Source: Raineyella fluvialis (lineage in GTDB: Bacteria > Actinomycetota > Actinomycetes > Propionibacteriales > Propionibacteriaceae). From it: a stretch of DNA of 64,000 nucleotides. Shown here piece by piece: positions 22,585 to 41,483 of this stretch. The position numbers were made by a program, and so were the translations under genes. The notes under the pieces are model-generated. The model worked only from the letters and a program-made list of their open reading frames with translations, made no database searches and had not been told where the DNA came from. The stretch is from assembly GCF_009646095.1 (NCBI RefSeq), contig NZ_CP045725.1, forward strand, positions 2,294,001 to 2,358,000. Reading direction: 5' to 3'. The first letter of the stretch is position 1. Each line of letters opens with the position of its first letter.

Positions 22585-24665
<2,081 letters not shown>

Positions 24666-24684
24666 CCGCCGGCCCTCACCGGGC

Positions 24685-25065: not shown

Positions 25066-25067
25066 CC

Positions 25068-26585
25068 TCAGACCTCCGCCAGGACGAGGGATTCCTCGGC
25101 CTCGGCCACGGCCGGGGTGGCGTCCCGGTCCCGCAGCCGGAAGGGCTGCTTGTCCTCGACGACGCGCCGGTACACGTACAGCAGGCTGCCGAGCACCAGT
25201 AGGCCGATCCCGATCAACAGCTCGGGGACACCGCCGTAACCGGTGACCGAGAACGACGTCGCGCCGACGACGAGGATCACCAGGTTGAAGACCGCCAGGA
25301 CGCCGGCGAGCGCGACCCACGGGGTCGACAGCTGCAGTGGGCGCGGGGCACCGGGCCGGTCCCTGCGCAGCAGCACCACCGCCGAGAGGGCGAAGACGTG
25401 GCACAGCACGTAGCCCATGTTGCTGGCCGCGAGCACGGCCACGGTCGTCGGCAGCAGCAGGACCGCCGCGATATTGGCCACGACGTCGACGTACATGCCG
25501 CGGTTGGGCACGTTGTGCCGGCTGACGTGGCCGAGCCACCGGATCGTCATCCCGCTGCGCGACATGCCGTAGAGGGTGCGGGCGCCGCCGGCGCTGGCCG
25601 CGTTCATGCCGAGCAGGAAGCTGCCGATCATGAAGATCACGACCACGTTCGACCAGAAGCCGCCGATCTCCCGCTGGAGGAGCTGGGCGTAGAAGCCGAG
25701 CGGTGCGTCGGCCATCTGCTGCTGCGTCACCGCCCCGCCGAGGGCGACGGGCATCATCGCGTACACGCCGAGGCAGAACATCGCCGCGCGGATCAGCGCC
25801 TTGTGGGTGTCCTTCTCGGTGTCGTGGTACTCCGGCGCGAACGTCGCACAGACCTCGATGCCGTACGCGGACCAGGCGTTCAGGTAGAGCCAGACGAGGG
25901 CGAGCTGGATGCCGCCCCAGAGCGAGCCGTTGGCGCCGGTGAGCCCCCAGCTGAGGTTCGACCAGTGGAAGTCGGACAGGAAGAACGGGACGAGGGTGAA
26001 GAGCACGAGCGGGACGAAGAGCAGGGCGCCGGTGAGGTAGCCCATGATCTTGACCGGCTTGGCCCCGAGGGCATTGATGGCCCAGATCCCGAGGATCAGT
26101 CCGACGGCGATCAGTCGGGGCAGATCGAGATGGATGCCGGCGTCGATGCTCCAGGTCGCCTCGGGGAACCACTGGGCCTGGATCAGGCCACCGGAGGTGA
26201 GGCCGAAGATGGCTAGCACCGAGGACCAGCCGGCCCAGTAGCCGATCGCCGACATCGGGCCGGCCAGGCTGAAGCGGGAACGCCAGCCCTCGAAGGCGTA
26301 CATGGCGATGCCGCCGGAGTGCTCGGGGAACATCGTCGCGGGCTCGGTGTAGATCTTGTTCTGCAGCACGGCGATCACCATCGATCCCAGCCACACCGCG
26401 AGGGCGCCGAGGGCGCCGACCTGGCCGGTCGTGTAGCCGAGACTGGCGATGATGAAGCCCGGGTTGGAGAGCGCCATGACGAATCCGTCGTACCAGCGCA
26501 TGGTCTTGAGCAGGGCCCGCTCGTCCACGTCGGCGACGGCCATCGGCATCGCAGACACGGAGTCGGGCAGGTTGGCAATGGTCAT
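25068..26585 (-). CDS. APC-superfamily amino acid/amine permease
   Basis: A 505-residue transporter with twelve or more hydrophobic segments. The first-helix signature SNPGFIIASLGYTTGQVGAL and the later YEGI-like AYGIEVCATFAPEYHDTEKD are typical of the APC (amino acid–polyamine–organocation) group. It lies 1 bp downstream of an N-demethylase gene in the same operon, so the likely cargo is the operon's amine or an N-methylated amino acid; the substrate is inference. No frameshift or truncation seen. Confidence 0.9.
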   Translation of the reverse strand: MTIANLPDSVSAMPMAVADVDERALLKTMRWYDGFVMALSNPGFIIASLGYTTGQVGALGALAVWLGSMVIAVLQNKIYTEPATMFPEHSGGIAMYAFEGWRSRFSLAGPMSAIGYWAGWSSVLAIFGLTSGGLIQAQWFPEATWSIDAGIHLDLPRLIAVGLILGIWAINALGAKPVKIMGYLTGALLFVPLVLFTLVPFFLSDFHWSNLSWGLTGANGSLWGGIQLALVWLYLNAWSAYGIEVCATFAPEYHDTEKDTHKALIRAAMFCLGVYAMMPVALGGAVTQQQMADAPLGFYAQLLQREIGGFWSNVVVIFMIGSFLLGMNAASAGGARTLYGMSRSGMTIRWLGHVSRHNVPNRGMYVDVVANIAAVLLLPTTVAVLAASNMGYVLCHVFALSAVVLLRRDRPGAPRPLQLSTPWVALAGVLAVFNLVILVVGATSFSVTGYGGVPELLIGIGLLVLGSLLYVYRRVVEDKQPFRLRDRDATPAVAEAEESLVLAEV

Positions 26586-26586
26586 G

Positions 26587-27678
26587 TCAGTCCGTCCTGT
26601 CGTGGGGTGAAGGGGAGGCGGCGGGCAGGTTGGCGGTGTGCAGGTCGGCGGTGCGCAGGAAGGCCACGACGTCGTCGCGGTGGTCGAGGAAGCCCTTGTA
26701 CTCCGCGAGGTCGGCGGGCAGTTCCTCGATGATCGTGGCGAGCTGCTCGCACCATGCGGGCACGGCGCGGAGCTCGTCGAGGGAGGCCATGAAGGTGCGG
26801 ATGTTGAAGGTCACCGCGCCGGTCATCGGCAGGCGGACGAAGTGCTCGAGCTCGATCCGCAGCTGGACCCGGCCCCAGGCCGTCGCATCGACGGCCCCGT
26901 CCCGGATCAGGGCGGGGATGTCGCGGCCCCAGGCGGGCAGCTCCTCGAGGCTGACGTCCAGCGTGCGGGAGTCGGAGGCCGACAGGGTCCAGTTGACCCG
27001 CCGGTAGACCTGGTCGGCGGGCAGCCGCTTGAGGAACTGCTCGGCCCGTGCGGTGATGCCTTCACCGGTCAGGCGCGGTACCGGGCCATGGATCTCGTAG
27101 ATGTCCATGCCCACGTCGAAGCTGACGGCCCAGGCGGCCGCGAAGGTCACCGCCCCCGCGTCGAAGCAGAGTCGCCCGTCGCGCTCGACCACGAGCAGCA
27201 GGTCGTCCGGCACTTCGCGGGCGAGGAACTCCAGCGGGTCGTACGGCAGCGTCGTGGCGTCGCCGAGGACGAAGCGCTGGTCGGTGCCGAGGACGTGGTT
27301 GCGCCAGTGGAGGTGTTCGCCCACCTCGTCGAGTTCCATCAGGTCCGGGTAGGTGAGGGCGAGGTCGCGCAGGTAGTAGAGGAGCAGGTCCCAGCAGGCC
27401 AGGGCCATGCCGGGGCGCACCTGGACCCGGCCGGGGTCGGCGTCGAGGATGCGGCGTCGGTCGGCCATGATCGCCGGATACTCGGCACCGCCGAGATCCA
27501 CCAGGTGGCGTCCCCATTCGCCGCCGCGCGTGCGCCGCGGCACGCGGGCGGGCTCGACGTTGACCGTGTACCGGAAGGCGTCGAGGTCGTCGGGGAACGG
27601 CCAGGGCAGGTTGGCGAGGTGGTCGATCGGTTGGGTGAGGAAGAGTTCGACCGCGAGGTCGGTGGAGGGAAGGGTCAC
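26587..27678 (-). CDS. Heme-dependent oxidative N-demethylase alpha subunit-like (DUF3445), copy 2
   Basis: A 363-residue protein of the DUF3445/HODM-alpha family, the oxygenase part of dimethylamine monooxygenase-type enzymes that split a methyl group off secondary amines as formaldehyde. Family features are WPFPDDLDAFRYTVNVEPAR at the start, the DAGAVTFAAAWAVSFDVG core, EIHGPVP, and VYRRVNWTLSASDSRTLD. It starts with a GTG overlapping the upstream reductase stop. It lacks the DmmA domain that its paralogue (28640-30205) has, and the two are clearly diverged, so they may differ in substrate or form a heteromer. Confidence 0.88.
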   Translation of the reverse strand: MTLPSTDLAVELFLTQPIDHLANLPWPFPDDLDAFRYTVNVEPARVPRRTRGGEWGRHLVDLGGAEYPAIMADRRRILDADPGRVQVRPGMALACWDLLLYYLRDLALTYPDLMELDEVGEHLHWRNHVLGTDQRFVLGDATTLPYDPLEFLAREVPDDLLLVVERDGRLCFDAGAVTFAAAWAVSFDVGMDIYEIHGPVPRLTGEGITARAEQFLKRLPADQVYRRVNWTLSASDSRTLDVSLEELPAWGRDIPALIRDGAVDATAWGRVQLRIELEHFVRLPMTGAVTFNIRTFMASLDELRAVPAWCEQLATIIEELPADLAEYKGFLDHRDDVVAFLRTADLHTANLPAASPSPHDRTD

Positions 27679-28643
27679 AGGAACACCTCGATCTGGTCGC
27701 CGCGTGAGACGCAGGGGAGCATGGTGTCGCCCGCCCGCTTCTCGTCATCCGTGAGCACGAAGTCCCGGTGCTCGAGTCGGGTCGCCCGCACCGGTAGGCG
27801 GCACTCGCCGCACACGCCCTGCCGGCACTGGTGGCGGACGTCGTGGCCGGCCGCGAGAAGGGTGTCCAGCAAGGACACCCCGGCCGGCACGTCGAGCCGC
27901 TGCCCGGTCGAGGCGACCGTTGCGGTGAACGGCTCGCCGGCCTCGAGCTCGGGGGCCGTGAAGCGCTCGAGATGGACCCGGGCCGTCGGCCAGCCCGCTT
28001 CGGCGGCGAGGCGTTCGTACGTCGCCAGGAGCGGGAGCGGGCCGCAGGCGTACGCGTGGGCCCCCATCGGCTGGTCGGCGAGCCGCTCGCGCAGCGTCTC
28101 GACGGTCCGCGCCGCCCCGATGGCCTCATGGACGCGGACGCCGGATCGTGCGGCCAGGGCACGGACGTCGGCGAGGTGCGCGGCTCGTCCGGGCCGGTAG
28201 GAATACACCAGCTCCACCGGCAGGCCGGCCCGGACCCTGGCTCGGGCGTGGGAGAGGACCGGGGTGATGCCGATGCCGCCGGCGACGAGCAGGACCGCGC
28301 GCTGGTCCGGCGCCGGGGCGAACATCGAGCGCGGGCCCTCCACCTCGACCAGGTCGCCGGGCCGCAGCGTGTCGTGCAGCCAGTCCGAGCCGCCGCCCTC
28401 ACCGCGTCGCAGGACGGAGATGCGGTAGGCGTCCGGAGCGACCCCGTCGTCGACCAGCGAGTAGGCGTTGCGCCGGCCGCCGGCGGTGACGACGAGGTGG
28501 CTGCCCGGCTGGTAGGCCCGCAGTGGGAGGCCGTCGGGGTCGACGAGCTCGAAGTGGGTGATGTGCTCGGTCAGGGCGGTGCGGGAGGCGATCCGGAGCG
28601 TACGCCGCCCGGCGCGGTAGCCGGGGTGGAGGTGGCCGCTCAT
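27675..28643 (-). CDS. PDR/VanB-type ferredoxin reductase, copy 2
   Basis: A 322-residue electron-transfer flavoprotein. An FMN/FAD-binding beta-barrel (YQPGSHLVV, RRNAYSLV) is followed by an NAD(P)H-binding domain (LLVAGGIGITPVLSH) and a plant-type [2Fe-2S] ferredoxin domain at the C-terminus with CRQGVCGECRLP plus a distant fourth Cys. This is the phthalate dioxygenase reductase layout. The start overlaps the previous gene (ATGA) and its stop overlaps the next, so stoichiometric expression with the N-demethylase is likely. It should pass electrons from NAD(P)H to the heme oxygenase. Confidence 0.93.
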   Translation of the reverse strand: MSGHLHPGYRAGRRTLRIASRTALTEHITHFELVDPDGLPLRAYQPGSHLVVTAGGRRNAYSLVDDGVAPDAYRISVLRRGEGGGSDWLHDTLRPGDLVEVEGPRSMFAPAPDQRAVLLVAGGIGITPVLSHARARVRAGLPVELVYSYRPGRAAHLADVRALAARSGVRVHEAIGAARTVETLRERLADQPMGAHAYACGPLPLLATYERLAAEAGWPTARVHLERFTAPELEAGEPFTATVASTGQRLDVPAGVSLLDTLLAAGHDVRHQCRQGVCGECRLPVRATRLEHRDFVLTDDEKRAGDTMLPCVSRGDQIEVFL

Positions 28644-30205
28644 GGCAGGTCCCGGGCGTGGGCGTCGGAGCCGAGGAAGCTGCCGCGGACCGCTGCCAGG
28701 TGGGGGTGGATGGCCAGGATGCGCTGACACCCCGGGCAGGCCACCTCATCGCCGGGGGCCGCTTCGACGCGGTGCGTCTGGCGGCAGTGGGCGCACTGCA
28801 CGGGCAGGTCCCGTCGGTGCACGACGAAGGCCCGCAGCTCGGCTGCGATGGCCCCGGCGGCGCGGGCCTCGGCGAGGACCTGGAGCACGTCGTACTGTCC
28901 GCCGACGACCATCAGCCGCATCCCGGTCCGCAGCTGGTCGAGCTGCCCGGCCAGCCGGGCCCGATCCGCACTGTCGGTCATCGAACCGAGGCGGGTCAGG
29001 GCGGTGCCACCCACCCGTGCGGCGTCGCGGGCCCAGTCGCGGGCGATCAGATCGGTCCGGGGATCGTCACCGACGGCGATGACGAGGAACGAGGAGCCAT
29101 CGGCATCGACGGGGTCAGGCCGCTCGGGCCAGACCGGCAGCGACAGTGCGGGGGGATGGACCTCCTCGGCACCGGGCGCCGGGGTCGCGGGCGGGGTGGA
29201 GGGGTAGGCGGTGAGCCACTCCGCGGCGCGGTCCTTGTACTTCCCGATGCCCTTGTAGTCCGCCATGTCGGCGGGCAGCTCGGCGAGCACCGCGGCGGTG
29301 CGCGTCCGCCACGGCTCGACCGTCGCGAGCTCCTCCAGCGGCAGCATGTAGGTGCGGATGAGGAAGAGGATCGCGCCCGAGTCGGGCAGCCGGACCAAGT
29401 GCTGCACCTCCACCCGGAGGTGGACCAGCCGGCCGAACTCCTCGTCGTCGACGAGGCGGATCAGTTCCCGATCGGGCCCCCACTCCGGATAGCGCTCGGT
29501 GGAGACGTCCAGTCGCCGCCCGATCGTCATCGTCCAGTTCGTCCGTCGGTACGGGCGGTGCGGCTGCAGCCGCTGGAGGAACTCGTGGGCCCGGGTGATC
29601 ACGCCCTCCTGGCGGATCCGGGGCACCGGCCCGTGGATCTCGAGGAAGGTCATCCCCACGTCGAAGCCGAAGCTCCAGTCGGCGGCGAAGGTCACCACGC
29701 CCGCGTCCGCGTGGAGCGATCCGCCGCGCTGGTCGAGCAGGACGATGTCCTCCTGCACCTGCCGGGAGATGAAGCGCAGTGGTTCGTCGGGCAGCGTGCT
29801 GGCGTCGCCGTAGACGAACTCGGCCGAGATGCCGAGCCTGGCGTTGTGCCAGTGCCAGCGCTTGCCCTCCCGGTGGAGGGTGAAGTCGGCCGGGTAGGCC
29901 TGCGCCAGCTCACGCATCAGCGTCAGCATCGTGTCCCAGGCGGCGGGCCGCATGTGGGGCAGGACGGCGTGGCGGGTCGGATCGGCGGCGAGGATCTGCG
30001 TACGTTCCGCGAGGTCGCGCTCGTAATCGGTGTCGAGGTCGAGCACGGTGGTGCCCCACAGCCCGGCGGGGGTGGCGACCGGCTGACGCGCCGGCTGGAC
30101 ATTCGTGCTGTACCGGTAGGTGTCGTCGGTGAACGGGAAGGGGAAGCCGCTGATCGACGGCCCGAGGGTCGGCCTCAGCGGGGACGGTTGGGTCAGCGTG
30201 GTCAC
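28640..30205 (-). CDS. N-demethylase alpha subunit (DUF3445) fused to a DmmA-like domain
   Basis: A 521-residue two-part protein. Residues about 10-340 are a DUF3445/HODM-alpha domain (FPFPFTDDTYRYSTNVQPAR, DAGVVTFAADWSFGFDVG, EIHGPVPRIRQEG, YRRTNWTMTIGRRLD). After a Pro-rich linker, residues about 365-515 repeat the whole DmmA-like protein encoded two genes upstream: an alpha/beta part ending GMRLMVVGGQYDVLQ and a zinc-ribbon-like end with CAHC and CPGC. Oxygenase and small partner are thus joined in one chain. GTG start overlapping the upstream reductase stop. Confidence 0.87.
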   Translation of the reverse strand: MTTLTQPSPLRPTLGPSISGFPFPFTDDTYRYSTNVQPARQPVATPAGLWGTTVLDLDTDYERDLAERTQILAADPTRHAVLPHMRPAAWDTMLTLMRELAQAYPADFTLHREGKRWHWHNARLGISAEFVYGDASTLPDEPLRFISRQVQEDIVLLDQRGGSLHADAGVVTFAADWSFGFDVGMTFLEIHGPVPRIRQEGVITRAHEFLQRLQPHRPYRRTNWTMTIGRRLDVSTERYPEWGPDRELIRLVDDEEFGRLVHLRVEVQHLVRLPDSGAILFLIRTYMLPLEELATVEPWRTRTAAVLAELPADMADYKGIGKYKDRAAEWLTAYPSTPPATPAPGAEEVHPPALSLPVWPERPDPVDADGSSFLVIAVGDDPRTDLIARDWARDAARVGGTALTRLGSMTDSADRARLAGQLDQLRTGMRLMVVGGQYDVLQVLAEARAAGAIAAELRAFVVHRRDLPVQCAHCRQTHRVEAAPGDEVACPGCQRILAIHPHLAAVRGSFLGSDAHARDLP

Positions 30206-31140
30206 AGGGGTACCTCCAGGGTCGGGGAGAGGGCCCGCGACACGCAGCACATCAGCGTGTCGCCGGCTTCCTTCTCGTCGGAGCTGAGGAAGAGGTCGCG
30301 ATGCAGGGGGACGCCGGCGGTCACGGGGAGACGGCACTCCCCGCACACCCCCTGCCGGCACAGGTGCGGGACGGCGATGCCCTGCTGATCGAGGGCATCG
30401 AGCAGCGACACGCCGGCGGGCACGTCGACGGTGCGTCCGCTGGCCGTCAGCCGCACCCGGAACGGGTCGCCGGGGTCGAGCGCGGCGACGCCGAAGTGCT
30501 CGGCATGTAGCCGTGAGGCGGGCCAGCCGGCGGCCCTCGCCCCGGCCAGGGTGTCGTCGAGGAACGAGGACGGCCCGCACACGTACAGATGGGTGCCGAA
30601 CGGCTGGTCGGCCAGGGCTGCGGCGAGCCGGGGCGCGAAGGCCTGGCGACCTACGACGACCTCGGCGGCCCCGTCCGTCAGGGTGAGGACGTCGTCGATG
30701 TGCGCTCCGGCGCCCCCGTGGACGTAGAGCACCTGCACGTCGCGGCCCCACCGCCGGGCGCTGCGCAGGTGGGAGAGGATCGGCGTGATGCCGATGCCGG
30801 CGGCGATGAGCAGGTGCTTGCGGGCGCCCGCGATCGGCGCGAACGCGCTGCGGGGGAGCAGGGCGGTGACCGTGTCGCCGACGGCCAGGGACTCGTGCAC
30901 CCAGCGGGAGCCGCCCTCGCCGTCGGGGACGAGGAGCACCGAGACGCGGTACTCCTCGGGGTCGATCCCGTCGCTGATCAGGCTGTATGCGTTGGAACGG
31001 GCGCCACAACTCAGGACGAGGTGGCTGCCGGCGACGAACGAGGGCAGCGTGCCCCCACCGGGCGCCCGCAGGACGAGCGTACGGATGCCCGGCGCCGCCT
31101 CCTTGACGGCGGCGACAGTCAGGGTGAGGGAGTCAGCCAT
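30202..31140 (-). CDS. PDR/VanB-type ferredoxin reductase, copy 1
   Basis: A 312-residue paralogue of the reductase at 27675-28643, with the same order of domains: flavin barrel (FVAGSHLVLSCGARSNAYSL), NAD(P)H domain (LIAAGIGITPILSHLRS) and C-terminal [2Fe-2S] domain (CRQGVCGECRLP, later CC). The start overlaps the DmmA-like gene by 8 bp and the stop overlaps the fused N-demethylase. Two different reductases in one operon suggest two complete monooxygenase sets rather than one. Confidence 0.93.
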   Translation of the reverse strand: MADSLTLTVAAVKEAAPGIRTLVLRAPGGGTLPSFVAGSHLVLSCGARSNAYSLISDGIDPEEYRVSVLLVPDGEGGSRWVHESLAVGDTVTALLPRSAFAPIAGARKHLLIAAGIGITPILSHLRSARRWGRDVQVLYVHGGAGAHIDDVLTLTDGAAEVVVGRQAFAPRLAAALADQPFGTHLYVCGPSSFLDDTLAGARAAGWPASRLHAEHFGVAALDPGDPFRVRLTASGRTVDVPAGVSLLDALDQQGIAVPHLCRQGVCGECRLPVTAGVPLHRDLFLSSDEKEAGDTLMCCVSRALSPTLEVPL

Positions 31141-31678
31141 GGGTCGCCTCCTCGGCGTCGATCTGGTAGCCCATCAGTCGGCCGGTACGCCGCGAGACGT
31201 GGTGGTAGATCACCAGGCGGCGGCCGCAGCTGTCGCAGGTCACCACGTCGCCGATGGCGGCGACGGCAGGGGTGGTGGCCAGGCAATGGCAGCAGTGGAT
31301 GTCGAGCGGGCCGGTGCCGACCGGTGCGACGACCAGTTCGTCGTCCTCCGTACCTGCCCTCACCGCCACCCCGCGCAGCGCCAGGCAGGCGCCCACCGGG
31401 CCCGCCAGGGCGACGCGGACGCCGACCCGGGCCTGACCCAGGGCGGTGGTGAGGGCCGCGCCGAGGTTCTCGGTCCGGCCGCCGGCGGCGTGCAGGACAC
31501 GGATGTCCTGCACGCTCGCCCCGCCCGCCAGCAGTGCGTCGCGCCACCGCTCGGTCTGCGCGACCCCGTCCGTCCCGGCGCCGACGAGGATCCAGGTGCT
31601 GCCGGTCCTGTCCGGGGTGACCGCGCCAGGGGCGTCGGCGACCCAGGTCGGGACACTGGTGTGGGCGAGGTCCGCCAT
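31133..31678 (-). CDS. DmmA-like dimethylamine monooxygenase subunit
   Basis: A 181-residue protein with an alpha/beta N-terminal part (ILVGAGTDGVAQTERWRDAL) and a C-terminal zinc-ribbon-like domain with HCCHC, then CDSCGRRLVIYHHVSRR. This matches the small subunit called DmmA in dimethylamine monooxygenases, where it occurs with a DUF3445 oxygenase and a ferredoxin reductase, exactly the genes that follow. The same unit is found fused to the oxygenase two genes downstream. The ATG at 31678 overlaps the cupin stop (ATGA). The family assignment is from domain pattern and context. Confidence 0.82.
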   Translation of the reverse strand: MADLAHTSVPTWVADAPGAVTPDRTGSTWILVGAGTDGVAQTERWRDALLAGGASVQDIRVLHAAGGRTENLGAALTTALGQARVGVRVALAGPVGACLALRGVAVRAGTEDDELVVAPVGTGPLDIHCCHCLATTPAVAAIGDVVTCDSCGRRLVIYHHVSRRTGRLMGYQIDAEEATHG

Positions 31679-32046
31679 CACAGCAGGTCGGCTCGGCGGT
31701 GGCCGGTGTAGAAGGCCAGCGCGTGGTCCGGGGTGCTGAAGTTGATCCGCGAACCCTTGGGGAAGAAGATCGCGTCCTTCGCCCGGGCCACCTGGACCTG
31801 GCCGGTGTCGACGTTCTCCAGCACGAACTCGCCCTCGAGAACGACCTTCATCTCGTCGTACTCGTACTCGTAGAAGAGCGGCTCCTCCGCGTGCTTCAGC
31901 TCGAAGAATCCCGAGCACATCGCGCTGCCGTCCGGGTTCTCGTACACGTCGGCGATGTAGCCGTCCCCGGCGTAGTCGGTCATCTTCGGCAGGTCCTGCC
32001 AGGCGCCCGAGGTCACGCGGAAGGGGGTCTGGGTGTTGGCGAGCAT
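31678..32046 (-). CDS. EutQ-like cupin protein, first gene of the amine operon
   Basis: A 122-residue single cupin (FYEYEYDEMKVVLEGEFVLEN; FFPKGSRINFSTPDHALAFY) of the EutQ/ethanolamine type. The ATG at 32046 has a strong CAGGAGG site just upstream; a start 20 codons earlier is possible but has no such site. It opens the leftward eight-gene operon. Cupins of this kind accompany amine-degrading gene clusters; a role as a metal-dependent enzyme or small-molecule sensor is not resolved. Confidence 0.85.
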   Translation of the reverse strand: MLANTQTPFRVTSGAWQDLPKMTDYAGDGYIADVYENPDGSAMCSGFFELKHAEEPLFYEYEYDEMKVVLEGEFVLENVDTGQVQVARAKDAIFFPKGSRINFSTPDHALAFYTGHRRADLL

Positions 32047-32124
32047 GTCGCCTCCTGTTCTGGAGTAAGGAGAGGTCGTCTCCTGAGGGGAAACGAGGTT
32101 GATCATCAGGAAACCACTCCTCGT

Positions 32125-32161
32125 GTTACCGGGGATGACCGCGGTGTTAGGTCTCCGTTAC
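32125..32161 (-). promoter_or_regulatory. GlnR-like site array upstream of the N-demethylase operon
   Basis: On the minus strand GTAAC (32161-32157), CTAAC (32150-32146) and GTCAT (32139-32135) follow each other at exactly 11 bp, and a further GTAAC (32129-32125) follows at 10 bp. The actinobacterial nitrogen regulator GlnR binds gTnAC-n6-GaAAC repeats with 11-bp period. The spacing fits; the GAAAC half is replaced by CTAAC. Computational only; the presence of GlnR in this organism is not shown. Confidence 0.4.
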
Positions 32162-32513
32162 GGGACCTGAGCGGCCGACGTGGCACCTCTCCGGTCGAGC
32201 TCGGCTGCCTGTCGGCGGCGGGTGGGGAGTCGGGCCGGTGGAGGATCCCGGTTTCGCGCTCCGGCACGATCTGCACCGTCCGTCTGCCGTCGACGGCTCA
32301 TCGACCGAGCGGCTACGCCGGGTCGGGGTCATCCGTTCGGCCGGTCGGGTCGTCGGTCCTCACGCCCTGGCTGCTGCCCTCGAAGTGACTGTGACAAGCG
32401 AAAACGTCGCATCGTCGGAGGGTGTGCGTCATTCCGCCCCGCCCAGTGGGCCTCGTCGGCCTGCTCGCATCCCGGAGGCCGGCAGGGGTGTGAGTGGGCG
32501 CCGTCATCGAGCC

Positions 32514-32540
32514 CTAACACGAGGGAAACCTCCCCGACCA
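32514..32540 (+). promoter_or_regulatory. GlnR-like box upstream of gmaS
   Basis: CTAAC (32514-32518), six bases, GAAAC (32525-32529), six bases, GACCA (32536-32540). The first two match the GlnR consensus gTnAC-n6-GaAAC at four of five and five of five positions. The box ends about 62 bp before the gmaS start, a usual place for an activator. It supports nitrogen-responsive control of the glutamylmethylamide pathway. Confidence 0.45.
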
Positions 32541-32602
32541 CATCGTCGGTAACTATGAGTCAACAGCGTTTCCTGATAATCAACTCATGGAGGTGTCACC
32601 CG

Positions 32603-33979
32603 ATGTCGATCGCAACCCTGACTGACGAGTTGTTGCAGAGGCAGGTGCCCGCAGGCCACCTCGCCTCCGCATCTCTGCGCGAACGCGCCGAACGCGATGG
32701 CGTTCGCTTCATCCTCGCCGTCTTCGTCGATCTCAACGGCAAACCCTGCGCCAAGCTCGTCCCGGTGGCGGCCGCCGACCAGTTGGAGAACGGCGAGCTG
32801 GGGTTCGCCGGCTTCGCCGCCGGCCTGATCGGCCAGCAGCCCCACGACTCCGATCTGCTGGCTGTCCCCGACCTCTCCTCGTACGCTGCCATCCCGTTCG
32901 TGCAGGAGGGCCTCGCCATCGTGCACTGTGACCCGTATGTCGACGGCCGGCCCTGGCCGTACGCCCCGCGGGTGATCCTCAAGCGGCTCCTCGACACGTA
33001 CGCCCGTCGTGGCCTGAGCGCCAAGGTCGGTGCCGAGGTCGAGTACTTCCTGCTGACCAAGGGCGAGGACGGCAGCCTCATGGCTGCTGATTCCCGTGAT
33101 GTCGGCCTGCAGACGTGTTACGACGCCCGTGGCGTGACCAGGATGTACGACCATCTGGCCGACATCAGTGAGGCGATGAACGCCCTCGGCTGGGGCAACT
33201 ACGCCAACGACCACGAGGACGCGCCCGGCCAGTTCGAGCAGAACTTCCACTATGACGACGCGCTCGTCACCGCGGACCGGGTCACCACCCTGCGCTACCT
33301 GATCAATGTCCTGGCCGAGCGGCGCGGGATGACCGCGACGTTCATGCCGAAGCCCTTCTCCGACCGGGCCGGCAACGGCCTGCACCTGCACCTGTCCCTG
33401 TGGAGGGACGACGCGCCGCTCTTCCCCGACGCGGACGACACCCGTGACCTCGGACTCTCGCCACTGGCCTACGCGTTCATCGGCGGCATCCTCGACCACG
33501 CCGCCGGCCTGCAGCTCTTCCTCGCGCCGAGCGTCAACTCCTACAAGCGCCGCGGCGCCACGACCAGCGCCTCGGGAGCGACCTGGTCACCCAAGAAGGC
33601 CTCGTACGGCGGCAACGATCGGTCCCACTTCATCCGCGTCCCCGACGGGAACCGGATCGAGGTCCGGGCCGGGGACGGCGCGGCCAATCCGTACCTCGCG
33701 ATCGCGACGACGCTGCTGGCCGGCCTCGCCGGCATCGACGCCGAGGTCGACCCGGGGGACCCGTGTGGCCCGGGGGAGTCCCGCCCGGACGCGGTGGCCC
33801 TGCCGCCCACGCTGCTGCATGCCGTCGAGGCCCTGCGCGGGGACGACCTGCTGCTCCGCGGCCTCGACCGCGACCACCCGGTGGGCCCCTACTTCGCCGA
33901 CGCGAAGGAGTCCGAGTTCCTGGCCTGGCACGGCACCGTGACCAGCTGGGAGCACGAGCAGTACCTGACGGCGTACTGA
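32603..33979 (+). CDS. gmaS: Gamma-glutamylmethylamide synthetase (glutamine synthetase family)
   Basis: A 458-residue glutamine-synthetase-fold ligase. Visible GS signatures are the metal-binding KVGAEVEYFLL, FEQNFHYDDAL, NGLHLHLSL, the ATP/glutamate segment NSYKRRG and EVRAGDGAANPYLA. The type is GlnT/GmaS-like rather than the canonical GlnA. The adjacent mgsABC genes point to ligation of glutamate with methylamine to gamma-glutamylmethylamide. The ATG at 32603 follows GGAGGTGTC. It could also use ammonia or ethylamine; the sequence alone does not decide. Confidence 0.82.
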   Translation: MSIATLTDELLQRQVPAGHLASASLRERAERDGVRFILAVFVDLNGKPCAKLVPVAAADQLENGELGFAGFAAGLIGQQPHDSDLLAVPDLSSYAAIPFVQEGLAIVHCDPYVDGRPWPYAPRVILKRLLDTYARRGLSAKVGAEVEYFLLTKGEDGSLMAADSRDVGLQTCYDARGVTRMYDHLADISEAMNALGWGNYANDHEDAPGQFEQNFHYDDALVTADRVTTLRYLINVLAERRGMTATFMPKPFSDRAGNGLHLHLSLWRDDAPLFPDADDTRDLGLSPLAYAFIGGILDHAAGLQLFLAPSVNSYKRRGATTSASGATWSPKKASYGGNDRSHFIRVPDGNRIEVRAGDGAANPYLAIATTLLAGLAGIDAEVDPGDPCGPGESRPDAVALPPTLLHAVEALRGDDLLLRGLDRDHPVGPYFADAKESEFLAWHGTVTSWEHEQYLTAY

Positions 33980-34019
33980 CACGCCGTCGTCGACAACCAC
34001 GTGATCGAGAGGAGACCCC

Positions 34020-34955
34020 ATGTGTGGAATCGCTGCCCTGCAGCTACGTAACCCGGCACTGCGCGACGAACTCGGTGTGCTCATGCACGGCATGCTGTGC
34101 GAGATCGTCGAGCGCGGCCCCGACTCGGCCGGTCTCGCCGTCTACGGCGACCGCACGCTCAACCCCGACGGCACCGCGGTGCTGACCCTGCTGGGCCACG
34201 ACGGCGAGCCGGAGGCGCTGCGCGAACAGCTCGCCAGCGTGCTGCCGTCGAGCAGCGGCGTCGAGGTCGAGCCGAGGGGCGACACGACCATCGTCCGGGC
34301 CGGCGTCGCGACCGAGGAACTCGAAGCGGCCGTCGAGACGTTCCTTCCCGGGGTCGGCATCGCCGGCCGCGGCACCGGCGTCACCGTCATGAAGGGCGTC
34401 GGCAACCCGCGCGACCTTGCCGAGACGTTCCACCTGCGCGAGGCCACCGGGCTCCAGGGCGTGTCCCACACCCGGATGGCGACCGAATCGGCCGTCACGG
34501 CGGGCGGCGCGCACCCGTTCACGGTCGCCGACGACCTGTGCCTGGTGCACAACGGGTCGTTCAGCAATCACGTCAGCATCCGCCGCCGGCTCGAGGCCGA
34601 GGGCGTCCGCTTCGACAGCGAGAACGACTCCGAGGTGGCGGCCCGCTACATCGCCCGACGCCTGGAACAGGGCGACGACCTCGAGACGGCCCTGGCCCAC
34701 CTGGGCGAGGTCCTCGACGGCTTCTACACCCTCGTCGTCACCACCGCGACCAGCATGGCCGTCGTCCGCGACCCGATCGCCTGCAAGCCGGCGATCATCG
34801 CCGAGACCGACGACTGGGTGGCGATGGCCTCGGAGTACCGCGCGCTCGCGGGCCTGCCCGGCATCGAGGACGCCCGGATCTTCGAGCCGGCGCCCGGCAT
34901 CGCCTACACCTGGACCCTCTCCACCCCCGCCGACAAGGAGGCGAACGTACGATGA
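34020..34955 (+). CDS. mgsA: N-methylglutamate synthase subunit A (class II glutamine amidotransferase)
   Basis: A 311-residue Ntn-hydrolase of the GlxB/MgsA type. The nucleophile is Cys2 (MCGIAALQ), with the family segments RGPDSAG, HTRMATES and LVHNGSFSNH. It corresponds to the amidotransferase third of glutamate synthase, encoded separately. In methylamine users MgsA releases methylamine from gamma-glutamylmethylamide for transfer to 2-oxoglutarate. It lies 40 bp after gmaS with GAGAGGAG as ribosome binding site and overlaps mgsB (ATGA). Confidence 0.88.
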   Translation: MCGIAALQLRNPALRDELGVLMHGMLCEIVERGPDSAGLAVYGDRTLNPDGTAVLTLLGHDGEPEALREQLASVLPSSSGVEVEPRGDTTIVRAGVATEELEAAVETFLPGVGIAGRGTGVTVMKGVGNPRDLAETFHLREATGLQGVSHTRMATESAVTAGGAHPFTVADDLCLVHNGSFSNHVSIRRRLEAEGVRFDSENDSEVAARYIARRLEQGDDLETALAHLGEVLDGFYTLVVTTATSMAVVRDPIACKPAIIAETDDWVAMASEYRALAGLPGIEDARIFEPAPGIAYTWTLSTPADKEANVR

Positions 34956-35668
34956 CCGTCACCACTCCGACCCCCGTGTCCACCCCGGCCCCCGTCAGCG
35001 CCGCGAGCTTCGATCTGAGGTCCGACAGTGTGCGGGCGGTCAACGCCGCCCTGCACGCCGCGAGCAGCCGCGAGAGCTTCACGATCGACCATGCCGGCGG
35101 CCAGCACAGCATCGCCGCGGGCATCGCTACCAACATCGACGTGACCATCAACGGTCACGTCGGGTACTACTGCGCCGGCATGCACACCACGGGCCGCGTC
35201 ACCGTCCACGGCAGCGCCGGCGTCGGCCTGGCCGAGAACATCATGAGCGGCGTCGTCCACGTGACGGGGGATGCGTCGCAGTCGGCGGCCGCCACCGGTC
35301 ACGGCGGACTGGTCGTCATCGACGGCAACACCGGCGCCCGGTGCGGCATCTCGATGAAGGGCGTCGACATCGTCGTGGGAGGCAGCATCGGCCACGCCTC
35401 CGCCTTCATGGCCCAGGCCGGGCGACTCGTCGTCTGCGGCGACGCCGGGGCCGGGCTGGGCGACTCGATCTACGAGGCCCGCCTCTACGTCCGCGGCTCC
35501 GTCGAGTCACTCGGCGCGGACTGCGTCGAGAAGCCGATGGGCGCCGAGTACCTGGCCGAACTGGCCGGTCTGCTCCGCGCCGCCGGCCGCTCCGAGGACC
35601 CGGCGGAGTTCCGCCGCTACGGCTCGGCCCGCCAGCTCTACCACTTCCACGCCGACAACTCCTACTGA
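34952..35668 (+). CDS. mgsB: N-methylglutamate synthase subunit B (GXGXG domain)
   Basis: A 238-residue protein formed by the beta-helical GXGXG domain found at the C-terminus of glutamate synthase large chains. It shows repeated G-rich turns (GHVGYYCAGMHTTGRVTVHG, GGSIGHASAFMAQAGRLVV) and the late YVRGSVESLGADCVEK. It matches MgsB/GlxC. A Pro/Thr-rich stretch precedes the domain. It is coupled to mgsA by an ATGA overlap and followed by mgsC after 18 bp. Confidence 0.88.
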   Translation: MTVTTPTPVSTPAPVSAASFDLRSDSVRAVNAALHAASSRESFTIDHAGGQHSIAAGIATNIDVTINGHVGYYCAGMHTTGRVTVHGSAGVGLAENIMSGVVHVTGDASQSAAATGHGGLVVIDGNTGARCGISMKGVDIVVGGSIGHASAFMAQAGRLVVCGDAGAGLGDSIYEARLYVRGSVESLGADCVEKPMGAEYLAELAGLLRAAGRSEDPAEFRRYGSARQLYHFHADNSY

Positions 35669-35686
35669 GCCGGAAGGACCCCACCC

Positions 35687-37008
35687 ATGACGAACCACGC
35701 CCAGCTGGGCCTACGCGAGTCGGCGACGTTCGACCGCGCCACCATCGCCGACATCCAGCGCGCCGCCGCGACCGGCATCTACGACATCCGCGGCTGGGGT
35801 GCCAAGCGCAGCCTGCCGCACTTCGACGACCTGCTGTTCCTCGGCTCCAGCGTCTCCCGCTACCCCCTCGAGGGCTACCGCGAGCGATGCGACACCGACG
35901 TGACACTGGGCGGGCGCCACGCGCTCCAGCCGGTGCACCTGGACATCCCGGTCACCATCGCCGGGATGAGCTTCGGGGCCCTGTCCGCGAACGCCAAGGA
36001 GGCCCTCGGCCGGGGGCCAGTGAGGTCGGCACCTCCACCACCACCGGCGACGGTGGCATGACTCCGGAGGAGCGCGGACACTCCTCGACGCTCGTCTACC
36101 AGTACCTGCCCTCCCGCTACGGGATGAACCCCGACGACCTGCGCAAGGCCGACGCGATCGAGGTCGTGCTCGGCCAGGGCGCCAAGCCCGGCGGTGGCGG
36201 CATGCTGCTGGGGCAGAAGATCACCGAGCGGGTGGCGGCGATGCGGACGCTGCCGGTGGGCATCGACCAGCGCTCCGCCAGCCGCCACCCCGACTGGACC
36301 GGCCCGGACGACCTCGAGATCAAGATCAAGGAACTGCGCGAGATCACCGACTGGCGTACGCCGATCTACGTCAAGGTCGGCGCCTCCCGCCCGTACTACG
36401 ACACCGCGCTGGCGGTGAAGGCCGGCGCCGACGTCGTGGTGATCGACGGCATGCAGGGCGGCACCGCCGCCACACAGCAGGTCTTCATTGAGAACGTCGG
36501 CATCCCCACCCTCGCCGCGATCCGGCCCGCCGTCCGGGCCCTGCAGGACCTCGGCGTGCACCGCGACGGCGTACAGCTCATCATCTCGGGCGGCATCCGC
36601 ACCGGTGCCGACGTGGCCAAGGCGATCGCGCTCGGCGCGGACGCCGTCTCCATCGGCACCGCCGCCCTGATCGCGCTCGGCGACAACAGCCCCCGCTACG
36701 ACGCCGAGTACGCCGCCCTCGGCTCGGCGGCCGGGTTCTACGACGACTTCCAGGACGGCAAGGACCCCGCCGGGATCTCGACCCAGGACCCGGAGCTGGC
36801 CGCCCGCCTCGACCCGGTCGAGGCCGGCCGGCGCCTGGCGAACTACCTGCGGGTGCTGACGCTGGAGGCGCAGACGATCGCCCGCGCCTGCGGCAAGTCG
36901 CACCTGCTCAACCTCGAGCCCGAGGACCTCGTCGCCTTGACCATCGAGGCCGCCGCCATGGCCGGTGTCCCGCTCGCCGGCACCGACTGGATCCCCGGCC
37001 GCTGCTGA
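35687..37008 (+). CDS. mgsC: N-methylglutamate synthase subunit C (FMN glutamate synthase domain), frameshifted
   Basis: The FMN and Fe-S synthase domain of GltB type (MgsC/GlxD), about 440 residues. It makes N-methylglutamate from methylamine and 2-oxoglutarate. The first part ends ANAKEALGRG. The second continues ASEVGTSTTTGDGGMTPEER and has QYLPSRYGM, GQGAKPGGGGML, KVGASRPYYDTALAVKAGAD, GMQGGTAATQ and IISGGIRTGADVAKAIALGAD. The frame breaks in the G run at 36012-36016; one more G restores the family sequence exactly. I read the gene as intact with a sequencing error. The ATG at 35687 follows GGAAGGAC. Confidence 0.86.
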
Positions 37009-37092
37009 CCCGACGTATCGCACCACGCCCTGATCCGCCACCTCCCGATCCACCCCATCACCGATCCACCGCACCGCTGATTGGAGTTCCCC

Positions 37093-38390
37093 ATGGACAC
37101 CGGAAACGTCGCCTGGCTGCTCGCCAGTTCGGCACTCGTCGCCCTGATGATCCCCGGCCTCGCCCTCTACTACGGCGCGATGGTCAGCTCCCGCCAGATC
37201 CTCAACATGATGATCATGTGCTTCTCGGGAGCCAGCCTCGTCGCCATCCTCTGGGTGCTGTACGGCTTCTCCGCCGCCTTCGGCACCTCGCTGGGCGGGC
37301 TGGGCCTGCTCGGCAATCCGCTGCAGTACTTCGGCCTGGACGCCGCTCTGGGCGACAGCACCGCCTCAGGGCTCCCGTTCGCCCTCTTCGCCGCGTTCCA
37401 GCTCCTGTTCGCCGCCGTCACCACCGCCCTGACGGCCGGTAGCGCCGCGGGACGGATGAAGTTCGGCGCCTGGATGCTCTTCGCCGGGCTGTGGGCGACC
37501 TTCGTCTACTTTCCGGTCGCGCACTGGGTCTTCGCCTTCGACAGCGAAGGTGTCGTCGGTGGCTGGATCGCCAACCGACTCGGCGCTGTCGACTTCGCCG
37601 GCGGCACGGCCGTCCACGTCAACTCCGGCATCGCCGCCCTGGCGCTCGCCCTGGTCCTCGGCCGCAGCAAGACCTTCGGCCAGCCGGTCCGCCCGCACAA
37701 CCGTCCGCTCGTCCTCGTCGGCGCCGGCCTGCTGTGGTTCGGCTGGTACGGCTTCAACGCCGGCTCGGCCCTCGCCGCCGGCACCGCCGCGAGCGTCGTC
37801 TTCCTGAACTCGACCGTCGCCGCCTGCGCCGGCCTGCTCGGCTGGGCCATGGTCGATCTCTTCCGCACCGGCTCGGTGACCAGCCTCGGCTCGGCTGAGG
37901 GCATCATCGCCGGCCTCGTCGCGATCACCCCGCCTGTGGCGCCGTCTCGCCGATCGGCGCGATCGTCATCGGCGCTGTGGCGGGCATCGCCTGCGCCTTC
38001 GCCATCGACTGGAAGTTCAAGTTCGGCTACGACGACTCCCTCGACGTCGTCGGCGTGCACCTCACCGGCGGCATCCTCGGCACCCTGCTCATCGGGCTGT
38101 TCGCCACGCCGACCGCCCCCAACGGCAAGGCCGGCCTGTTCTACGGCGGCGGGCTGGGCCTGCTCGGCACCCAGGCCCTCGCCGTGGCCGCGGTACTCGC
38201 CTACTCCTTCACCCTTACCTGGCTGATCGCCAAGCTCGTCGGCGTCACCGTCGGCCTGCGGATTCCCGAGGAACACGAGGTGGCCGGCATCGATCCCCAC
38301 TCGCACGACGAGCTCGCCTACGACGAGGCCGCGTACGACGAGGAGCCGGTCGCCGACGGCCTGACGCTGGTCCCGGCCAGCACCCGCTGA
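37093..38390 (+). CDS. amt: Ammonium/methylammonium transporter, frameshifted
   Basis: An Amt/MEP channel of about 433 residues with eleven membrane helices. The pore histidine pair is visible in FAGGTAVHVNSGIAAL and in VVGVHLTGGILGTLL, and the selectivity region WMLFAGLWATFVYFPVAHW is present. The frame breaks at about 37931; adding one G (CCCCGG) restores AITPACGAVSPIGAIVIG and joins both halves. In the island it would take up ammonium or methylammonium for GmaS. A PII (glnK) gene, the usual neighbour, is absent. The tail is long, acidic and variable. Confidence 0.88.
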
Positions 38391-38396
38391 ACCCCG

Positions 38397-38433
38397 GTGG
38401 TGCGGATGCCACCTGACGCGGCATCCGCACCAC
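38397..38433 (+). terminator. Hairpin terminator after amt
   Basis: A perfect 14-bp stem, GTGGTGCGGATGCC (38397-38410) with GGCATCCGCACCAC (38420-38433), and a 9-base loop, 6 bp behind the amt stop. There is no long U run. It probably ends most gmaS–mgs–amt transcription before the flavoprotein gene. Confidence 0.65.
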
Positions 38434-38484
38434 TACCCGTTTGCCCCGTCCCGCCGTACCCACCAGTTGAGGAGCACATCCACC

Positions 38485-39618
38485 ATGACCAGCATCGCCA
38501 TTGTCGGCGCCGGACTCGCCGGATCAGGCACCGCCTGGCGACTCGCCCAGGCCGGCCACGACGTCACCGTCCTCGAGCGCTTCGCCCCGGCGAACGCGTT
38601 CGGCAGTTCCCACGGGTCCGCTCGTATCTTCCGCTACGCCTATCCCGAGCAGGAGTACGTGCACCTCGTCACGCTCGCCCGGCAGGGTTGGACAGAGTTG
38701 GAGTCCGCCGCGGGGGAGACCTTGATCGACCTGGTGGGTTCGGTCGACTTCGGCCCGCTGCGGGCACAGAGCGGCCTCGCCGGGCTGCTGGCGGCCGAGG
38801 GGGTCGAGCATGAGGTCCTCGGCTCCGCGGTCGCGCGGGAGCGGTGGGGCCAGATCGCCTTCGACACCGACGTGCTGTGGACCCCGGGCGCCGGCGTCAT
38901 CGATGCCGAGCGCGCGGTGATGGCCATGCTCACCCTCGCCCAGCGGCTGGGCGCCGACGTACGGACCGACTTCCCGGTGGTCCGCGTCGAACGCGCGGGG
39001 GCCGGTTACCGGGTGATCGGCGCGGACGGTACGGCCGTCGAGGCGGAACAGGTGGTCGTCGCCGCGGGCGGCTGGCTGCCCGATCTCCTCGGGGACCTGG
39101 GGCTGCCCGACGCGTTCCTGTCGTCCCTGCCGAGCCTGCGGGTGACCCAGGAGAACGCCTTCCACTTCCCCTACCGCGATCCGTCGGCGACCTGGCCGAC
39201 GATGATCCGCAAGGCGCCACAGATCCAGACGTACGCCCTGCCCGGCGGGCGCGACGCCGGCTTCACCGGGCTCAAGATCGCCGAGTACAACGGCGGCAAG
39301 CCCATCCTCTCGGCCACGCACCAGGACCGGACGATCGACCCGGTCAACCGGGAACGCGTCATCGACTTCGTCACCGAGTTCCTGCCCGGCCTGGTCCCCG
39401 AGCCGTACGCGGAGGCGACCTGCCTGTTCACCAGCACCCCGGACGAGGACTTCATCATCGATCGGGTCGAGGGCATCACCGTGCTGTCCCCGTGCTCGGG
39501 TCACGGAGCGAAGTTCGCCCCGCTGATCGGGGAGTTCGCCGCCGCGCTCGTCGCCGGGTCGGCCGACGCCGTCCCGACGCGCTTCCGGACCGGCATGGGC
39601 GCGGAGCTGGTGGCATGA
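38485..39618 (+). CDS. solA: Monomeric sarcosine oxidase-like N-methyl amino acid oxidase
   Basis: A 377-residue flavoprotein of the MSOX/MTOX (SolA) family, which oxidises N-methyl amino acids to amino acid, formaldehyde and H2O2. FAD loop GAGLAG at 8-13; SSHGSARIFRYAYPE at 41-55 with the catalytic His and Arg; Lys264 in GLKIAEYNGG, the oxygen-activating Lys of MSOX; Cys313 in ATCLFTSTPDEDFIID at the position of the covalent FAD link; SPCSGHGAKFAP near the end. It sits beside mgsABC, where methylamine users normally have the mgdABCD dehydrogenase, so N-methylglutamate is the likely substrate. Sarcosine remains possible. ATG at 38485 after TGAGGAG. Confidence 0.88.
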   Translation: MTSIAIVGAGLAGSGTAWRLAQAGHDVTVLERFAPANAFGSSHGSARIFRYAYPEQEYVHLVTLARQGWTELESAAGETLIDLVGSVDFGPLRAQSGLAGLLAAEGVEHEVLGSAVARERWGQIAFDTDVLWTPGAGVIDAERAVMAMLTLAQRLGADVRTDFPVVRVERAGAGYRVIGADGTAVEAEQVVVAAGGWLPDLLGDLGLPDAFLSSLPSLRVTQENAFHFPYRDPSATWPTMIRKAPQIQTYALPGGRDAGFTGLKIAEYNGGKPILSATHQDRTIDPVNRERVIDFVTEFLPGLVPEPYAEATCLFTSTPDEDFIIDRVEGITVLSPCSGHGAKFAPLIGEFAAALVAGSADAVPTRFRTGMGAELVA

Positions 39619-40835: not shown

Positions 40836-41483
40836 ATGGAGGGGTGGGTCACGGGGCCCGAGGTCCTGCTCACGTACCATGACACGGTGTCAGGCGTGCA
40901 GCGATCCGACGGGCCCCGCCCTTCCCTCGAGGAGATCATCGCTGCCCAGGTGCGGGCCCACCGCGAGGCGGCCGGGATCTCCGCCGCCGAGCTCGCCTCC
41001 CGGATCGGCCTGTCCAAGGCGATGATCTCCAAGATCGAGAGCGCGACCATCTCCGCGTCCCTCTCGACGCTGGCCCGGCTCGCCGAAGGGCTGGACATTC
41101 CCGTGACGGCGCTGCTGCGCGGCGTCGACTCCGACCGGGACGCCTCGTTCACCAAGGCGGGGGCCGGCAGCCGCAGCGTACGGTCGGGCACGCAGCACGG
41201 CCACGAGTACCGGGTGCTCGGCACGCTCAAGGACATGCCCGACGCCCTGGAACCGACGCTGGTGACGCTCACCGACGCCTCGGCCGTCTTCCCGCTCTTC
41301 CAGCATTCCGGCACCGAGTTCCTCTACCTCCTGTCCGGCCGGATGGTCTACGGCCACGGCGCGTACAGCTACGACATGGAGCCGGGCGACTCCCTGCTGC
41401 TCGACGGCGAGGGGCCGCACGGCCCCCGCGAACTGGTCGACGTCCCGGTGGTCTTCCTCTCCGTGCGGAGCACCAAATCCTGA
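40836..41483 (+). CDS. XRE-cupin transcriptional regulator
   Basis: A 215-residue regulator with an N-terminal helix-turn-helix (about 32-88: AAELASRIGLSKAMISKIE and SLSTLARLAEGL) and a C-terminal cupin sensor (about 125-210: FLYLLSGRMVYGHG, DMEPGDSLLLDGEGPHGP). This is the PuuR-like architecture that controls amine and amino acid degradation. The first ATG directly abuts the hydrolase stop; a GTG at 40887 is an alternative start. As the last gene of the island it is the likely local sensor of an amine intermediate. Confidence 0.9.
   Translation: MEGWVTGPEVLLTYHDTVSGVQRSDGPRPSLEEIIAAQVRAHREAAGISAAELASRIGLSKAMISKIESATISASLSTLARLAEGLDIPVTALLRGVDSDRDASFTKAGAGSRSVRSGTQHGHEYRVLGTLKDMPDALEPTLVTLTDASAVFPLFQHSGTEFLYLLSGRMVYGHGAYSYDMEPGDSLLLDGEGPHGPRELVDVPVVFLSVRSTKS

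Follow-up and report, generated by a model that had tools for sequence, protein, structure and literature searches.

The heme-dependent oxidative N-demethylase (HODM) is reportedly the first enzyme shown to be built from a PAS sensor domain; to our knowledge, dimethylamine is its one known substrate, and we know of no role established for its partner protein DmmA. We take the PDB structures 5lte and 5lth to be those of HODM from Pseudomonas mendocina (Ortmayer et al. 2016). According to PMC5520151, DmmD is always found beside DmmABC in the screened marine roseobacter isolates, and DmmABC alone is active in E. coli, which makes the aminomethyltransferase a feature of the gene cluster and not part of the enzyme core. 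Here we describe an operon encoding two such sets of proteins in Raineyella fluvialis (assembly GCF_009646095.1, genome G000 in this work), within a 64,000-nucleotide stretch of contig NZ_CP045725.1 (positions 2,294,001 to 2,358,000), hereafter the window. An initial annotation of the window held that the known sets are single and separate, and this is how the DmmA, reductase and oxygenase (DUF3445) genes occur in the shown stretches of five annotated proteobacterial plasmids.

Organization of the doubled operon

The operon runs along the minus strand between 32046 and 25068 and contains the genes for a cupin, DmmA1, a first reductase (red1), a first oxygenase fused to a second DmmA (oxy1-dmmA2), a second reductase (red2), a second oxygenase (oxy2) and an APC permease (Table 1). 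It is read as module I (dmmA1-red1-oxy1) followed by module II (dmmA2-red2-oxy2). Profile matches bear out the two oxygenase, two reductase and two DmmA units of the initial annotation, as well as their coordinates. The HODM alpha family PF11927 matches residues 52-326 of the fusion protein (231.3 bits, cut-off 25) and NF041259 matches residues 419-517 (96.0 bits, cut-off 60), in agreement with the earlier reading of the C-terminal third of 28640-30205 as a DmmA, which we place at about residues 356-515. PF11927 scored above its cut-off in both oxygenases, and the 5lte fold was recovered for oxy1 by its model and for oxy2 by sequence only. The zinc-ribbon model PF22289 was above cut-off in both DmmA units, whose translations show, by eye, four cysteines that we take to be those of the ribbon; both reductases show what are presumably the ferredoxin cysteines and the motifs of the flavin and of the nucleotide lobe. 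The Pfam model PF22290, called 'DmmA-like_N', gave matches in red1 (65.9 bits) and red2 (44.7 bits) but in neither DmmA unit of the window, so annotation by name could mislabel the reductases.

Genes overlap by 1 base at cupin/dmmA1, 8 bases at dmmA1/red1, and 4 bases each at red1/oxy1, fusion/red2 and red2/oxy2, and the start of the permease gene lies 1 base past the stop of oxy2; the overlap first described for all genes therefore holds at five junctions (1 to 8 bases) and not at the permease. The cupin start at 32046 is preceded by AGGAGG, as read from the sequence. No third PF11927 match was found in the genome (one contig, 3.65 Mb; 2 matches in total), and the operon was not distinguished by its G+C content. 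Neither sigma-70-like promoter nor terminator patterns were found at 24950-32700, which is a weak test for a 70% GC actinobacterium, and no Rfam families were found at 24000-42000, which says little for such a genome.

Two types of subunits

The oxygenases of the oxy2 kind (type II, 40 rows) occupied one side of a branch with an SH-aLRT support of 100; three Saccharopolyspora rows fell beside them (95), and the remaining oxygenases of the oxy1 kind (type I) grouped with the five proteobacterial Dmm rows (95). In the listed part of the FastTree output, type II reductases formed one clade (39 rows, FastTree support 99), as did DmmA2 (39 rows, FastTree support 98); red2 did not branch outside type I but among the actinobacterial reductases. 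Midpoint roots and long-branch warnings apply to both the oxygenase and the reductase tree, and the DmmA tree was built without L090, L092 and L094, whose DmmA fell under the thresholds. A recent duplication was ruled out by the long split between types I and II, the age of type II being placed differently by the two trees.

Several oxygenase positions showed near-fixed changes in type II, among them H84G, Q149E, Q151P, Y239L and Q268E in the numbering of the fusion (at least 90% of 40 type II rows against at least 93% of 48 type I rows, Arthrobacter and Saccharopolyspora included), and all five proteobacterial rows share the type I residues there. Just one histidine, 191 in the fusion and 197 in oxy2, is conserved in at least 95% of the rows of each type and in all five proteobacterial rows; it is a candidate heme ligand. 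The fusion is 48% identical to 5lte; judged from the sequences, type I resembles the known dimethylamine monooxygenase and type II appears to be a divergent, uncharacterised branch.

Distribution of the doubled operon and of single sets

A scan with patterns from the type II oxygenase gave 44 named loci (L027 and L057 come from one genome, and so do L028 and L058), so the 36 that carry both types, with the window genes as queries, do not represent a frequency. These include Gordonia, Nocardioides and Cryobacterium. The order I-II was found in 23 of them (20 Gordonia, the Actinomycetota metagenome-assembled genome (MAG) L060, Nocardioides flavescens L067 and Blastococcus L079), the order II-I in 10 (Nocardioides, Pimelobacter and Aeromicrobium MAGs, being nine Nocardioidaceae operons, plus Millisia), and a divergent orientation in three, all Cryobacterium. 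Within a set, the order dmmA-reductase-oxygenase was shared by five proteobacterial sets, eight single actinobacterial sets and both modules of the doubled operons. A EutQ-like cupin match was present in 35 of the 36 doubled loci, the missing case being on a 5.3-kb contig. The arrangement is more than chance, since these units come back together in 36 named loci and 19 Gordonia genomes show the fused frame. In many doubled operons an ammonium transporter takes the place of the permease.

Each type was also found alone. Six single-set loci have an oxygenase that best matches type I (three Arthrobacter, with one PF11927 in each genome, and three Saccharopolyspora), and the genomes G034, G094 and G416 also carry type I without type II. 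Nesterenkonia sedimenti (L078) has a type II set alone, with one PF11927 in a genome whose completeness is not stated, while L077 stops at a contig end and the type I set of its genome is on another contig. Upstream of the N. sedimenti set (5297-7592) are a gene for a luciferase-like monooxygenase (PF00296, 181.6 bits), a possible lead to the type II substrate, and a gene with no Pfam match. A genome paper (PMC8875376) places dmmABC in one clade of Nesterenkonia.

The plasmid of Ca. Mycobacterium methanotrophicum (L089) carries the two sets ~24 kb apart, with separate DmmA genes. Its red2 match is in two pieces (13008-13586 and 13588-13971) among many insertion elements, and the type II set may be broken. 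The APC permease, which follows oxy2 in the window, follows oxy1 on this plasmid (74%).

In an even draw across the phylum, PF11927 was found in 18 of 396 genomes, and two full-length copies in G000 and G353 only. A search of relatives found it in two of 56 other genomes, both of the same order, and in none of the three same-genus and 29 same-family genomes, which suggests that the operon in the window was gained horizontally. The genome G043 is of the same order as G000 and of another family. Distant PF11927 proteins (27-35% identity) were seen in other actinobacterial families (L032, L034-L040), with no red1, red2 or DmmA1 matches within 12-15 kb around their genes; they are possibly orphan members with another partner or role.

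Fusion between the two modules

In the window, DmmA2 directly precedes red2 but continues the frame of oxy1, so the fusion spans two modules. In operons of order II-I, DmmA2 is a gene of its own that heads module II, as established by close reading in Nocardioides alkalitolerans (L028) and by scan in the others (L073 is cut before DmmA2). Read in this way, the closing gene of module I is joined by the fusion to the gene that opens module II. The initial annotation had pictured one set with its oxygenase fused to its own DmmA; the DmmA tree and the operons of opposite module order rule this out and assign the fused DmmA to the other module.

The fusion was present in 20 of the 24 operons of order I-II, namely 19 of 20 Gordonia operons and the window; the genes were separate in L060, L064 (G. 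jinhuaensis), L067 and L079. The dmmA2 start of L060, L067 and L079 lies in another frame and overlaps the stop of oxy1; joining the two genes therefore needs a frame-shifting indel and not the mere loss of a stop. The oxy2-dmmA1 junction of the II-I operons was fused in none of 10 named loci. A genus-wide search found PF11927 in 33 of 59 Gordonia genomes, with two copies in 31, where the stronger copy sits in an open frame of at least 529 codons; some second copies are also in frames of up to 677, so long frames are compatible with the fusion and do not prove it. G. jinhuaensis has four PF11927 copies, and its extra sets (L123, 5602-8047; L124, 4973-7339) are further uncharacterised branches, one type II-like at 49%, with the order reductase-DmmA-oxygenase, and another type I-like at 50%.

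A tree of the six proteins joined was built for 37 operons and 1649 columns (limited to operons complete in all six genes: 35 of the 36 doubled named loci, L073 being cut, plus the window and the M. methanotrophicum pair). Nine II-I operons formed one clade (100/100), as did the I-II operons with the M. methanotrophicum pair and without Blastococcus (24 rows, 100/99). The window paired weakly with the unfused N. flavescens (89/61), outside a clade of 22 operons that includes every Gordonia operon (100/99). Three changes of the fused state are needed on this tree, and a single clade of all 20 fused operons was rejected (p-AU 0.000167), indicating more than one gain or loss. The shortest account is two gains and one loss, and one gain with more losses is possible. 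Inheritance of the fusion by the window from Gordonia was unsupported, given the weak pairing outside the Gordonia clade and the rejection of a single fused clade.

An AlphaFold2 model of the fusion (alignment of 25 sequences; mean confidence 74.5) had ten-residue confidence means of 80-96 over residues 361-510, and values below 50 at residues 1-59, 175-181, 232-244 and the linker, 337-354. Foldseek with this model gave 5lte and 5lth as the top matches (E 1.7e-31, 48% identity), and the next, 2pia, had a probability of 1.00 with an E of just 4.8e-3. With VIA-align, residues 16-337 superposed on 5lte (Z 28.3), and about 361-465 on NAD lobes of the dioxygenase reductases for carbazole (7c3b, Z 11.2) and phthalate (2pia, Z 10.2), with root-mean-square deviations (rmsd) of 2.1-2.2 over 93-97 residues. 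The absence of a DmmA fold at 365-515, which the initial annotation had named as grounds for abandoning its reading, was thus not what we observed. Dehydroquinate synthase also superposed on the DmmA region (Z 10.0, rmsd 3.6); this likeness and that to binding proteins were discounted as generally Rossmann-like, being tied with or below the reductase lobes. In profile comparisons, DmmA2 matched DmmA1 at 99.9% and DmmA1 matched the NAD lobe of red1 at 94.9%, but DmmA2 matched red1 at just 5.3% and red2 at 0.3%.

The ratio of nonsynonymous to synonymous divergence (dN/dS) in eight Gordonia pairs was ~0.08-0.28 for the fused DmmA2 and ~0.04-0.13 for oxy1, showing that the fused DmmA2 is under purifying selection; in two pairs containing the window, dS was 0.77-1.37, too high to rely on. 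The linker is poorly conserved and its length varies from ~13 to 33 aligned residues among the pairs compared.

Neighboring methylamine genes

The plus strand beside the operon carries genes of the N-methylglutamate pathway, namely a gamma-glutamylmethylamide synthetase (GMAS)-type gene and a GlxBCD/MgsABC-like set, whose glxD frame is broken. The GlxB- and GlxC-like genes are probably of the Mgs kind, going by their place beside the synthetase as in the pathway of PMC5520151 and PMC5023230. The GlxD-like and ammonium transporter genes are each divided between two reading frames, either through assembly errors or because the methylamine branch is genuinely decaying. The FAD amine oxidase is a candidate N-methylglutamate oxidase, and the XRE-cupin gene, with relatives in the flanks of many doubled loci, a candidate regulator of the cluster. 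Between these two lies an allantoate amidohydrolase-like gene (39621-40835; NF006770, 572.6 bits vs 372) that recurs in some related clusters. SoxD (PF04267), the mark of four-subunit sarcosine oxidase or N-methylglutamate dehydrogenase, had no match in G000, where the oxidase like monomeric sarcosine oxidase adjoins the cluster instead.

Of the 36 doubled named loci, 28 had a GMAS-type synthetase in their flanks (up to 10 kb), together with GlxB-like and usually GlxC/GlxD-like genes. Such synthetases also occurred in every one of the seven HODM genomes that were searched (41% in G393, 59-63% in G353, G043, G034, G094 and G416, and G000 itself), and none was found at E 1e-60 in three same-genus genomes without PF11927. 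Since the synthetase accompanies HODM genomes, type I fits a dimethylamine enzyme feeding the N-methylglutamate route, as in R. pomeroyi. The same GMAS-GlxBCD cluster, with an FAD oxidoreductase (24-27% to that of the window) and an XRE-cupin gene, occurs in G034, G094 and G416, which carry type I only, so type II is an addition and not a need of the N-methylglutamate route.

Table 1. Genes of the doubled operon and of the adjoining methylamine cluster (window coordinates).
Feature	Coordinates	Strand	Evidence
EutQ-like cupin, first operon gene	31678..32046	-	PF06249 48.8 bits on longer frame 31678-32106
DmmA1, free DmmA of module I	31133..31678	-	NF041259 96.8 bits; PF22289 40.5 bits
red1, PDR-type reductase of module I (NAD lobe, plant-type 2Fe-2S)	30202..31140	-	Fer2 54.1 bits; PF22290 65.9 bits
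Fusion protein, 521 aa: type I HODM-like oxygenase ~17-334, linker ~335-355, DmmA2 ~356-515	28640..30205	-	Profile matches, predicted structure
red2, PDR-type reductase of module II	27675..28643	-	Fer2 40.4 bits on 27675-28649 (cut-off 21)
oxy2, type II HODM-like oxygenase	26587..27678	-	PF11927 193.9 bits (cut-off 25); PDB 5lte E 2.4e-67
APC permease	25068..26585	-	PF13520 133.3 bits; trimethylamine N-oxide (TMAO) permease model NF053774 204.5 bits, far under cut-off 690
Type III glutamine synthetase, GMAS kind	32612..33979 (query stretch, start unsettled)	+	TIGR03105 547.6 bits vs 469.6 on 32519-33979
GlxB- and GlxC-like (MgsA/MgsB-like) genes	34020..35668	+	Profile matches
GlxD-like (MgsC-like) gene	35687..37008	+	Frame broken near 36030-36061
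Ammonium transporter gene	37081..38390	+	Frame broken near 37950; TIGR00836 279.9 bits vs 343.3 on first part
FAD amine oxidase, monomeric sarcosine/N-methyltryptophan oxidase kind	38485..39618	+	NF008425 239.6 bits vs 257
XRE-cupin regulator	40836..41483	+	PF01381, PF07883

Two probable demethylases and their possible tethering

The observed anatomy, with two types that recur together and a fused DmmA2 under purifying selection, makes it fairly probable in our view that the operon encodes two complete three-part N-demethylases of the HODM/Dmm kind, type I for dimethylamine and type II for another methylated amine, with the fusion tethering them. In each enzyme, a PDR-type flavin/2Fe-2S reductase would use NAD(P)H to supply electrons to a heme-PAS oxygenase, which would oxidise an N-methyl group to formaldehyde, and DmmA, a zinc-ribbon protein whose main domain is like the NAD lobe of the reductase, would probably dock or regulate both. 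Type I (oxy1, red1, DmmA1) would be the dimethylamine enzyme, handing methylamine to the adjoining gamma-glutamylmethylamide synthetase and N-methylglutamate synthase, and type II (oxy2, red2, DmmA2) a separate enzyme acting on the other amine. Where oxygenase I is joined to the DmmA of module II, both enzymes would be physically tethered and may act as one complex in series. The substrates, the role of DmmA and the tethering are what we infer beyond the genes themselves.

A more specific version, which we regard as unlikely, takes type II for a heme-PAS demethylase of trimethylamine or another tertiary N-methylamine that, tethered with type I, would lead from the tertiary amine to methylamine while bypassing the N-oxide. 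It would fit that, among the 38 genomes searched that carry a type II set (G000, 35 of the 36 doubled named loci, without L067, and L077 and L078), 37 have neither trimethylamine monooxygenase (Tmm) nor TMAO demethylase (Tdm) above cut-off. Tmm (NF058570, cut-off 675) was above cut-off in six of 50 genomes or records, namely two proteobacterial control plasmids, three single-set Arthrobacter and Cryobacterium luteum, which has both types, and also in one of 14 control genomes; Tdm (NF053776, cut-off 1100) was above cut-off in two of the 50, both proteobacterial plasmids, with G393 at 1031 bits. The single-set genomes G034, G094 and G416 and three Saccharopolyspora also lack both, and G393 lacks Tmm, so the absence does not single out type II.

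The initial annotation left the choice between two enzymes and one with unlike oxygenase subunits. The latter, a mixed oligomer of oxy1 and oxy2 in which neither is active alone, would agree with the overlapping genes, with the covalent link across modules in 20 of 24 I-II operons and with the co-occurrence of both types in 36 of the 44 loci of the type II-seeded scan. We nevertheless hold it to be quite improbable, because G034, G094, G416 and three Arthrobacter have type I only, N. sedimenti has type II only, the M. methanotrophicum sets are far apart with separate DmmA genes, and the Cryobacterium modules are divergently oriented. That each type is found alone favours two enzymes, although a mixed complex may form where the fusion exists. 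The two could also be isozymes, both for dimethylamine, that differ in affinity or oxygen response; their shared domains, module make-up and neighbours would suit this, as would the GMAS-type methylamine pathway being the sole clear downstream route. We doubt it, as the long branch and the near-fixed differences at positions conserved in type I and the proteobacteria go beyond what is expected of dosage isozymes. Least probable among these readings is that type II demethylates N-methylglutamate (or methylamine) in place of N-methylglutamate dehydrogenase: SoxD is missing from the type II-bearing G000 and G043, and GMAS-type genes flank most doubled loci, but G034, G094 and G416 also lack SoxD and yet have the same cluster with an FAD oxidoreductase, which weakens this reading, the window has an FAD amine oxidase as well, and G353 carries both SoxD and type II.

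The fusion may be a neutral accident of overlapping genes, with the enzymes working apart, a reading to which we give slightly less than even weight: one frame-shifting indel could join the overlapping oxy1 stop and dmmA2 start of L060, L067 and L079, but the fusion has been retained in nearly all Gordonia operons read and its state was gained or lost more than once. The reading of two enzymes, which we prefer, has several points against it. The fusion may be a tolerated accident, as the linker varies and the G. jinhuaensis genes are separate. The idea that type II has another substrate comes from residue changes, and the trees conflict on its branch point, with the oxygenase outside type I plus the proteobacteria and red2 inside the actinobacterial reductases. 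Gene order has exceptions, Saccharopolyspora having dmmA-oxygenase-reductase and one G. jinhuaensis set reductase-DmmA-oxygenase. Finally, a DmmD-like aminomethyltransferase gene adjoins the set in all five proteobacterial loci and is absent from the window operon, and the nine genomes searched for it gave just GcvT-like matches of 27-34%; G000 has one such match (31%), and three same-genus genomes without HODM have one each (30-33%).

A second divergent HODM branch, fixed beside the first in several actinobacterial families, offers a natural test of further substrates for this scaffold. The cross-module fusion lets the joint working of two such enzymes be tested and provides a handle on DmmA. 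For Gordonia and Nocardioides, the operon also suggests a probable capacity for methylated amines, one that surveys relying on tmm and tdm would overlook.

Comparison with known systems

No description of a doubled or fused HODM was found in the open literature searched by enzyme, domain and subunit names, subscription journals being mostly uncovered. The initial annotation would have given way to a fusion both common and characterised; it is common in Gordonia, and a characterisation was not found in that literature. The Gram-positive methylamine gene clusters of PMC5023230 share with the window EutQ-like cupins and, in Mycobacterium, Gma and MgsABC genes, and the cupin is proposed there as a part of methylated-amine oxidation without known function; unlike here, the section on these clusters names no HODM-type enzyme and ascribes dimethylamine oxidation to Tmo. 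The window resembles the Dmm system of Ruegeria pomeroyi (DmmDABC; PMC5520151) in its DmmA-reductase-oxygenase module and its link to the GmaS/Mgs pathway, but has two sets instead of one, no DmmD, and a cupin gene. As in HODM, both oxy1 and oxy2 match the alpha subunit and have reductase and DmmA partners; unlike HODM, there are two types per operon, oxy1 is fused to DmmA2 and the operon lacks an aminomethyltransferase gene. The HODM/Dmm module is already known; what is new to the open literature searched is that there is a second type, that it is paired with the first and that a fusion crosses the two modules.

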